From Hyunsoonleella aquatilis (GTDB lineage Bacteria; Bacteroidota; Bacteroidia; Flavobacteriales; Flavobacteriaceae): DNA of 64,000 bases. Below, piece after piece: positions 62,515-64,000 of the stretch (positions within the stretch are counted from its first letter, which is position 1; every line of letters begins with the position of its first letter). Both the position numbers and the translations under genes were made by a program. Location of the stretch: positions 432,944 to 496,943 of the forward strand of contig NZ_JACNMF010000004.1 of assembly GCF_014270105.1 (NCBI RefSeq), read 5' to 3'. Under the pieces are notes generated by a model that was given only the letters and a program-made list of their open reading frames with translations, did no database searches and was not told the origin of the DNA.

Positions 62515-63603
62515 ATGCCCATATACATGGATAGGCACGATCTACCAGGAGTTACCTTAAAAGACGCCGCTGAAGCGCATTCGCAAGATTTAATCCATCA
62601 AGATAAATATAGTTGCAAAGCGTTAACATATTGGGTGGACGAAGATCGTGAAAATGCTTTTTGTTTGATTGAAGCCCCCAACAAAGATGCTGTAACAGAG
62701 TTACATTATAATGCCCACGGTTTAATTCCCCACGAAATTATTGAGGTTGATAGTAAATTGGTTAAATCATTTTTGGGGCGGATTCATGACCCAGAGTCAA
62801 ACACTGAAATTGTAGATTCGGCCTTTAGGGCCATCATGGTTATTGAATCCAGCAATTTTATTCATCGATTAGACAATAATCAGTTTGACCTTTTTTATCA
62901 ACGTTATCATAACAGTGTTGGCAAATGCATCAGCAAATACAATGGAAAAGTAGTGCTTCTCAAGAGCAATAGTTACCTCGTTTCGTTTAAAACTGTGGAT
63001 GACGCCGTAATGTGTGCTCTACAAATAACACACAATATTAAATACATCACTCCAAACTTTGATAGCTCCTACAAAGAACTAAATATCGGTATAAGCACCG
63101 GAGAACCAGTTATTGAGAAAAAAGAGTTATTTGAAGATGCTATTGCACTTTCTACATATTTATGTGAAGTTGTACAAGGTCATATAGCAATATCTGCTGA
63201 AGCAAAAACACAATATCAAAAGGAGCACAAACATGCCAAAATAGACGAGTCGCTTATACGTTCCTTAAAATACACGGAAGAAGTTTTTTTAGTTAAACTT
63301 ATGGATTTCGTTGAAAAGCACTGGAATAATTCGGCATTCAACGTAAGTGATTTCAGTACCAAAATGGGGTACAGCAAGTCACAGCTTAACAGGAACATTA
63401 AAAAACTTACAGGGCACTCCCCAAATAATTTCATTAAACAATTACGCCTTCAACGTGCCATGAAGCTTTTATATAATGGAAAAGGGAACATTTCGCAAAT
63501 AGCTTTTGAAACAGGTTTTAATACGCCGTCCTATTTTTCAAAATGCTTTTTAAATTATTTTGGGCTCTTACCATCCACTTTCTTAAAGCAATACAGCAAT
63601 TGA
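62515..63603 (+). CDS. DUF4242 - degenerate cyclase-homology - AraC transcriptional regulator
   Basis: A 362-residue protein with three domains. Residues 1-90 are a DUF4242/SCO4226-like domain (YMDRHDLPGVTLKDAAEAH, TYWVDEDRENAFCLIEAP, HNAHGLIP-like YNAHGLIPHEII). Residues about 104-235 match a class III nucleotide-cyclase homology domain (RAIMVIESSNFIHRL ... KVVLLKSNSYLVSFKTVDDAVMCALQI ... ELNIGISTGEPVI), but the two metal-binding Asp positions are E111 and N152, so it is probably catalytically dead and used for sensing. Residues 262-360 are an AraC HTH pair. The next gene encodes a DUF4242 lipoprotein, its likely target or partner. Confidence 0.87.
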   Translation: MPIYMDRHDLPGVTLKDAAEAHSQDLIHQDKYSCKALTYWVDEDRENAFCLIEAPNKDAVTELHYNAHGLIPHEIIEVDSKLVKSFLGRIHDPESNTEIVDSAFRAIMVIESSNFIHRLDNNQFDLFYQRYHNSVGKCISKYNGKVVLLKSNSYLVSFKTVDDAVMCALQITHNIKYITPNFDSSYKELNIGISTGEPVIEKKELFEDAIALSTYLCEVVQGHIAISAEAKTQYQKEHKHAKIDESLIRSLKYTEEVFLVKLMDFVEKHWNNSAFNVSDFSTKMGYSKSQLNRNIKKLTGHSPNNFIKQLRLQRAMKLLYNGKGNISQIAFETGFNTPSYFSKCFLNYFGLLPSTFLKQYSN

Positions 63604-63615
63604 TGGTTACCACAA

Positions 63616-63643
63616 AAAAAGCGCGTCAAATTTGCTGCTTTTT
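63616..63643 (+). terminator. Possible weak terminator
   Basis: AAAAAGC (63616-63622) can pair with GCTTTTT (63637-63643) around a 14-base loop, 13 bases after the regulator's stop. The stem is AT-rich, so it is a weak candidate. Confidence 0.32.
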
Positions 63644-63679
63644 GAACCAATAGTAGAATTTCCATTTAAGCATCTATTC

Positions 63680-63687
63680 TAATTTTG
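63680..63687 (+). promoter_or_regulatory. -7 box (TAATTTTG) for DUF4242 lipoprotein
   Basis: TAATTTTG fits TANNTTTG, 25 bases before ATG 63713. It implies independent transcription of the lipoprotein, consistent with control by the regulator upstream. Confidence 0.5.
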
Positions 63688-63712
63688 AGTTATTAATTTA
63701 AAACTCTTTATT

Positions 63713-64000
63713 ATGAAAACTCTAACGTTATTTACACTATTTGGCTCCCTCCTGCTTTTCAATTGCTCCAACAAGACCAATTCTGTTCCCAATCAATTAA
63801 AGGCAGAATTAAATAAAAATGACGGTCAACTTTTTGTTATTGAAAGAAATATTCCTGATGCCGGACAACTTACCGCAGAGCAATTACAAAGCATCTCTCA
63901 AACCTCATGTGATGTTTTAGACGAACTTGGCAATGATATAAAATGGTTGCACAGTTATGTCACTAACGACAAAGTATTTTGTGTTTACAAAGCCAGCAAT
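63713..64000 (+). CDS. DUF4242 domain lipoprotein (3' end beyond window)
   Basis: Ninety-six residues are visible before the right edge. The signal FTLFGSLLLFNC has a lipobox-like LLFNC (C18). The mature part GQLFVIERNIPDAGQLTAEQ ... IKWLHSYVTNDKVFCVYKASN matches the DUF4242/SCO4226 fold, the same domain as the N-terminus of the upstream regulator. In Streptomyces a related protein binds nickel, so a metal or small-ligand role is possible. It has its own -7 box. Confidence 0.8.
   Translation, partial: MKTLTLFTLFGSLLLFNCSNKTNSVPNQLKAELNKNDGQLFVIERNIPDAGQLTAEQLQSISQTSCDVLDELGNDIKWLHSYVTNDKVFCVYKASN

Follow-up and report, generated by a model that had tools for sequence, protein, structure and literature searches.

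The gene pair and its domains

The window, a stretch of 64,000 nucleotides of Hyunsoonleella aquatilis DNA, ends in two neighbouring genes that are separated by a conserved site and a promoter box. The features are as follows.

62515 to 63603, plus strand: regulator gene, 362 amino acids, a fusion of DUF4242, pseudo-cyclase and AraC domains (open reading frame list, Pfam, profile)
62524 to 62748, plus strand: DUF4242 or SCO4226-like domain, regulator residues 4-78 (PF14026, 1.2e-17; Foldseek match 4oi6_A)
62827 to 63264, plus strand: cyclase homology domain, about residues 105-250, predicted to be catalytically dead (profiles, model)
62845 to 62847 and 62968 to 62970, plus strand: codons of E111 and N152, which occupy the metal-Asp columns of the cyclase homology domain
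63274 to 63591, plus strand: AraC-type DNA-binding domain, about residues 254-359 (HTH_18; PDB match from residue 254)
63620 to 63660, plus strand: predicted operator, 41 bp (matrix score 24.2; ranks first in the genome under model R1)
about 63622 to 63632 and 63643 to 63653, plus strand: predicted operator half-sites, a direct repeat of period 21 bp
63680 to 63687, plus strand: predicted -7 promoter box TAATTTTG (TAnnTTTG), beginning 60 bp after the first base of the operator
63713 to 64000, plus strand: DUF4242 lipoprotein, first 96 of 128 amino acids, lipobox LLLFNC (Pfam, SCO4226 fold)

The first-pass annotation, made from the letters of the sequence, had the coordinates of the gene pair right, the lipoprotein frame being clipped by the window end. 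The gene runs on, and the complete partner of 128 amino acids is found at L010:8657-9043 (contig G000:C16). Two further claims of that annotation hold: PF14026, cyclase homology and HTH_18 are fused in one protein of 362 residues, and the gene from 63713 combines the same Pfam domain, PF14026, with a lipobox. The partner matches PF14026 at 6.1e-17 when cut at the window end and at 8.3e-26 when complete, and both proteins exceed the gathering score of 28.5 bits (regulator 64.3, partner 90.4 bits). These two genes are the only PF14026 matches at E<=0.001 in the genome. The signal peptide of the partner, MKTLTLFTLFGSLLLFNC, has a Cys at the cleavage site (lipobox pattern).

HTH_18 matches the regulator at residues 281-359 (1.7e-21) and HTH_AraC matches it at 2.7e-7; Pfam and the AraC-type chains of the PDB thus both place the C-terminal double helix-turn-helix of the AraC/XylS family in the protein. 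This domain is common to the AraC/XylS one-component regulators and the window regulator, which differs from them in that its sensor part consists of a DUF4242 and a dead cyclase domain.

A conserved operator and promoter between the genes

The gaps between regulator and partner genes of 11 loci, otherwise unlike, have one ungapped block in common. With an operator matrix trained on 10 loci, the window excluded, the window site scores 24.2, and the maximum of 2000 dinucleotide shuffles is 10.0. When each of the 10 training sites is left out in turn, it beats its own 300 shuffles, the smallest margin being that of L020 (37.5 against 22.6). A site above 15 bits is found within 450 nt downstream of 87 of 132 regulator genes and within 350 nt upstream of 3, a count that covers the training loci and two locus sets with genomes in common; 32 counted matches, among them repeats in tandem copies, lie elsewhere in 1.3 Mb.

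An untrained set was obtained by removing L111, L114 and L119, which hold training sites, from 41 family loci; the window is one of the 38 that are left. Sites above 15 bits occur in 29 of the 38 loci, 33 sites in 460,703 bases, and all 33 are on the strand of the regulator and none on the opposite strand. The remaining nine loci, including the partner-type loci L117, L121 and L122, have no site above 15 bits. The box TAnnTTT[AG], which is outside the 41-bp matrix, starts at exactly offset 60 in 29 of the 33 sites. Over all loci and training sites there are 83 distinct sites above 14 bits, with the box at offset 60 in 68 and at other positions of the scanned stretch 6 times; since the loci are related by descent, neither these nor the preceding operator and box counts are independent trials.

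The block has the character of a direct repeat of period 21 (score 5.0, against a maximum of 4.5 in 2000 column shuffles). AraC itself uses direct repeats about 21 bp apart, and the predicted repeats beside a promoter would, if the regulator binds them, be a second likeness of the locus to those of AraC/XylS regulators. An inverted-repeat operator was rejected, its symmetry being equalled by 618 of 2000 column shuffles, as was an RNA element, the consensus RNA structure of the block having 0 pairs. Consensus sigma-70 promoters were set aside too, 7 being present against 7.3 expected; the sigma-70 consensus is not the promoter consensus of the phylum Bacteroidota.

PMC9723704 gives TAnnTTTG as the -7 motif that the housekeeping sigma factor of a flavobacterium recognises, spanning -12 to -5. 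With the box so placed, transcription in the window is expected to begin near 63692, which would put the downstream half-site at about -50 to -40. The interval from operator to box is little conserved, and a -33 element of its own does not show up in it.

In L112, L115 and L116 the partner comes before the regulator and the site precedes the partner. The site would thus belong to the target operon, which in the window is the lipoprotein gene. The predicted operator and promoter strengthen the tie between the regulator and the lipoprotein gene beyond what the first-pass annotation had claimed.

Target range in the genome

A second model, R1, was built from sequence only and contains 32 sites. 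The window site is one of them, so the genome ranking leans toward it; the 10-locus matrix was made without it. In the window's genome (G000), where 150 of 8490 first-look candidates were scored, R1 gives the window site an E value of 1.7e-6 and the next site 0.022. A second target in this genome does not stand out by sequence.

R1 was also applied to 20 further genomes, picked by hand; 14 of them have a PF14026 regulator and 6 lack one. In 12 of the 14 the top-scoring site is at a regulator locus (3.2e-8 to 0.0024), and in G103 and G169 it is elsewhere. The sites of G024, G133 and G049 themselves are apparently inside R1, as is another site of G034. In the six genomes without the regulator the best values range from 6.4e-4 in G132, a genome of the window's own genus that has no PF14026 match, to none in G007. 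The at-locus match of G155 (0.0024) is thus weaker than the best match of G132.

The middle domain

The window protein has no match to Pfam Guanylate_cyc, a family that at E<=0.01 matches only one of 55 aligned regulators, the window included. Other searches do reach the cyclases. Residues 106-220 match PDB chain 3mr7 by phmmer (8.6e-5), the profile of the 55 regulators matches Ma1120 (4.2e-14) and 3mr7 (1.5e-13), and the PADLOC cyclase profile PycC matches the regulator at 2.7e-5. In the AlphaFold2 model (mean pLDDT 83.6, pTM 0.67) Foldseek finds the class III cyclase Ma1120 (4wp8_B) at 4.6e-6 with a TMt of 0.69; the best E value, 2.0e-8, is that of a photoactivated cyclase, though at a TM-score of 0.3. 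These profile, PycC and fold matches, together with the rhizobial homologues described below, two of which do match Guanylate_cyc, indicate that the middle domain, about residues 105-250, is a cyclase domain.

The first-pass annotation had proposed a dead cyclase fold, and this proposal stands up: the searches above match cyclases, the model resembles class III cyclases, and the two metal-Asp columns are occupied by E111 and N152. Unlike active class III nucleotide cyclases, the window protein is without both metal-binding Asp residues, and its cyclase domain is predicted to be catalytically dead. In 81 aligned rows (80 relatives and the window) the first column (111) has E in 36, G in 18 and D in 1, and the second column (152) has D in 16. 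Both catalytic Asp residues are present in one row (L056), and neither in 65.

Rhizobial and Agrobacterium plasmids encode homologues that cover regulator residues 1-217 or more. Three of them were compared, L101 (5001-5669) being covered in part only. They are 31-38% identical to the window regulator over the DUF4242 and cyclase domains, which come in the same order. Two of the three encode proteins of 272 residues (L099:5001-5819) and 271 residues (L100:5001-5816), both without an AraC domain, and match Guanylate_cyc at 2.2e-13 and 6.8e-13. FTDIVGST and GDG, which hold the two metal Asp residues, are kept in all three. After the first strand the window stretch is three residues shorter than that of the rhizobial proteins. 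Because both metal Asp residues are present, the rhizobial proteins are possibly active cyclases; this and the lack of the AraC domain distinguish L099 and L100 from the window regulator. Where they are annotated, the rhizobial DUF4242-cyclase proteins are called 'nickel-binding protein'.

Spread of the family and its neighbour genes

Of 197 relatives, 80 (L016-L095) were kept for comparison of loci. All match from regulator residue 1 to 354 or beyond, except L063, whose match ends at residue 210 near the end of its stretch. Partner genes, 18 in number, were found in 17 of the 80 loci, each of them downstream of the regulator and in its orientation, a count limited to the fetched flanks, many of which end at contig ends.

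Co-occurrence was surveyed in 199 genomes of the family, from 198 genera, PF14026 frames of at least 340 amino acids being taken as regulators. PF14026 matches occur in 49 of these genomes. A regulator is present in 40, a shorter DUF4242 gene in 28 and both in 19 (Fisher p 1.9e-9, a nominal value, as the genomes share ancestry and that of the window is among them); 21 genomes have a regulator and no short gene, and 9 the reverse. In 16 of the 19 genomes with both, the genes lie within 6 kb of each other. They form 19 pairs, all on one strand, with the partner downstream in 15 and upstream in 4. The pairing of regulator and partner genes is real. The first-pass annotation had named two outcomes that would refute it, a middle domain unmatched to cyclases in profile searches and genes that do not co-occur, and neither came about.

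The commonest neighbours of the family are oxidase, globin and cupin genes. Among 81 loci, the 80 and the window, the regulator is followed by a flavin-oxidase family gene in the same orientation in 51 and by a cupin gene in 19. Truncated globin genes occur in 29 loci and number 30; of these, 29 are downstream in the orientation of the regulator and one is upstream on the opposite strand. The same site that precedes the lipoprotein gene in the window elsewhere precedes EncM-like oxidase, globin and cupin genes. A second set of 40 stretches from 39 genomes, mostly one each, was drawn from 58 regulator-length matches. With the window it makes up 41 loci, of which 16 have a partner (before the regulator in 4), 19 an oxidase, none both and 6 neither; one of the last, L126, is a pair of 221-residue matches in G154 and not the regulator of that genome. 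In the first set partner and oxidase are found together in at least four loci (L021, L024, L029 and L031). Of the proteins with solved structures, EncM is the nearest to the L021 oxidase (2.4e-99) and group 1 truncated haemoglobins are the nearest to the L021 globin (3.6e-26); the cupin of this locus is Cupin_2 by Pfam. At L021:5202-8306 and L031:5272-8140 the globin, EncM-like oxidase, cupin and DUF4242 lipoprotein genes follow the regulator in a row.

Tandem arrays of 2 to 4 regulator genes are present in five genomes, at L131 (G129:C18), L133 (G189:C16), L142 (G184:C7), L129 and L138. Those of L131 and L133 adjoin genes that we read as cytochrome c, DsrE-like and TauE-like.

An EncM-like oxidase acting in trans was rejected for the window's genome, where the best of three matches, on contig C15, is 40% identical; no globin, cupin or DUF4242 gene is seen in the 4.4 kb around it (L096). 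An anti-phage role was likewise rejected, as PADLOC gives only a cyclase profile for the regulator and nothing for the partner.

The recurrent neighbours bear on the nature of the signal. Conceivably the regulator is a sensor of redox state, nitric oxide or electrophiles, in which Cys50 and the His and Asp residues of DUF4242 react with or bind a reactive compound that the target operon then removes. The frequency of the oxidase, globin and cupin genes points in this direction, as do the invariance of Cys50 and the apparent equivalence, by eye, of C90 in the partner. However, the window operator has the lipoprotein gene alone behind it, and the genes beside the L131 and L133 arrays indicate diverse outputs; the proposal is a tentative one.

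The two DUF4242 domains

SCO4226 of Streptomyces coelicolor is the characterised DUF4242 member found in the literature searched. In PMC4186839, its dimer is described as binding four Ni, with the Ni-1 site formed by Asp43, Ser46 and His76, and nickel as inducing its gene. As far as can be judged from the models, both window proteins have the SCO4226 fold: Foldseek aligns the regulator model to 4oi6_A with a TMt of 0.86 and an rmsd of 1.2, and the partner model with a TMt of 0.80 (5.4e-5). SCO4226 is a free protein of 82 residues, whereas the window copies are a regulator-fused domain and a lipoprotein. In sequence searches of the PDB the regulator matches it at 0.0097 alone and at 8e-9 by profile. 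The partner does not match it in these searches, its likeness being one of Pfam and fold only. Both proteins miss the equivalog cut-off of NCBIfam NF033706, 125 bits (regulator 37.6, partner 16.7 bits).

The two window domains do not align with each other in BLASTP. A tree of 48 rows splits into two groups at 100/100 support, one made up of the regulator DUF4242 domains and the rhizobial cyclase-linked ones, the other of the partners and solo DUF4242 proteins of plasmids. Because the rhizobial domains are nested in the regulator group, the tree fits a gain of the AraC domain in Bacteroidota as well as its loss in rhizobia. The invariant residues include D6, R7, H8, H22, D25, C34, W40, D42, C50, H64 and H68 in the regulators and E44, R45, S62, C66, H80, K87, C90, H103 and G107 in the partners; by eye, the C50/C90 and H64/H103 positions seem to be common to both. 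SCO4226 also has D6, H8, H22, D25, W40, D42, C50 and H64 of the regulator.

The export signal of the partner varies. By our own lipobox and Sec pattern, which is not a signal predictor, the 18 regulator-adjacent partners of the genome_contigs loci comprise 9 with a lipobox, 5 with a Sec-like signal and 4 with none. The 20 rows of the family set (one gene twice) comprise 2 with a lipobox, the window being one, 8 Sec-like and 10 with neither, some of the last looking like signals missed by the pattern. This mixture means that the membrane arrangement is not constant. The closest relative found is that of Hyunsoonleella aestuarii (L016), at 83% identity; there an internal deletion has reduced the partner gene to a 32-residue frame (L016:5103-5294), and the operator and -7 box remain.

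The first-pass annotation had suggested that regulator and lipoprotein are a sensing pair, each protein binding the same compound on its own side of the membrane. The domain and fold in common with SCO4226, the strong gene adjacency and the export signals of 14 of the 18 partners would agree with such a pair. It has not been borne out: the failure of the two domains to align, their separation at 100/100, their different invariant residues and the partners without a signal all argue against it, as do the 19 of 41 loci with a flavin oxidase and no partner and the near loss of the partner in L016 with regulator and operator kept. The sensing pair is therefore unlikely.

It has about the same low probability that the regulator DUF4242 domain senses nickel and induces a nickel-sequestering lipoprotein, after the manner of SCO4226. 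The nickel binding of SCO4226 and the induction of its gene by nickel (PMC4186839), the rmsd of 1.2 to 4oi6 and the invariance of D6, H8, H22, D25, C34, C50, H64 and H68 speak for nickel. The Ni-1 site, however, is not kept in the window regulator but reduced to its Asp: D42 is present in 81 of 81 rows, Ser46 of SCO4226 aligns with R45 (R in 80 of 81), and His76 aligns with I76 (I in 80 of 81) if HEV is set on IEV by hand, the HEV motif being taken from a primer given in PMC4186839. In addition, the partner is without a sequence match to SCO4226 in the PDB searches, what recurs beside the regulator is oxidase, globin and cupin genes, and no nickel genes were noticed among the neighbour clusters listed.

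Proposed mechanism

The explanation that we consider probable as a whole is that the regulator is a one-component AraC-type activator of the neighbouring operon, acting through the operator at 63620-63660. The N-terminal DUF4242 domain is the likely receiver of the signal, and the dead class III cyclase domain is likely to serve in dimerization and coupling. The AraC domain would bind the two direct repeats, 21 bp apart, and the 3' end of the conserved block may stand in for a -33 element. On its signal, the regulator would recruit polymerase to the neighbouring promoter and so presumably activate, rather than repress, the adjacent operon; the target in the window would be the DUF4242 lipoprotein gene. 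Since the operator is positioned between the genes, the spacing to the box is fixed and no near-equal site is present in the genome, the regulator very probably activates the adjacent lipoprotein gene directly.

A site at -50 to -40 can also serve a repressor, and the block follows closely on the stop codon and overlaps the promoter region; nevertheless, a role for it in repression or as an RNA element (leader or terminator) is unlikely in view of its unpaired RNA consensus, its end before the -7 box at fixed spacing, the lack of a separate conserved -33 element and the 21-bp direct repeats, which fit tandem AraC-type binding.

No paper on such a DUF4242-cyclase-AraC regulator family was found in the literature searched. 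A wider proposal, made with considerable reserve, is that the regulators are an undescribed activator class of Bacteroidota, in which a DUF4242-cyclase signalling enzyme, its catalytic Asp residues still present in rhizobia, might have gained an AraC domain, lost catalysis and come to switch nearby genes through an operator grammar of its own, the targets being operons of the detoxification type. The window lipoprotein would then act in the envelope on the same compound. The family would show how, in nature, the fold of a signalling enzyme has been built into a transcription factor, and its rhizobial relatives may still be active. As it now has a sequence-defined predicted operator, promoter and target, its signal can be searched for with an ordinary reporter. 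The family also offers a way toward finding out what DUF4242 proteins do.

The solo DUF4242 genes of plasmids (7 of 13 records) have mixed neighbours, from which no shared function emerges. On the Ilyobacter plasmid pILYOP02 (L103:1-8156) the solo gene lies amid hydroxylamine reductase, rubredoxin and metallo-hydrolase genes, and it is also near multicopper oxidase and cupredoxin genes.
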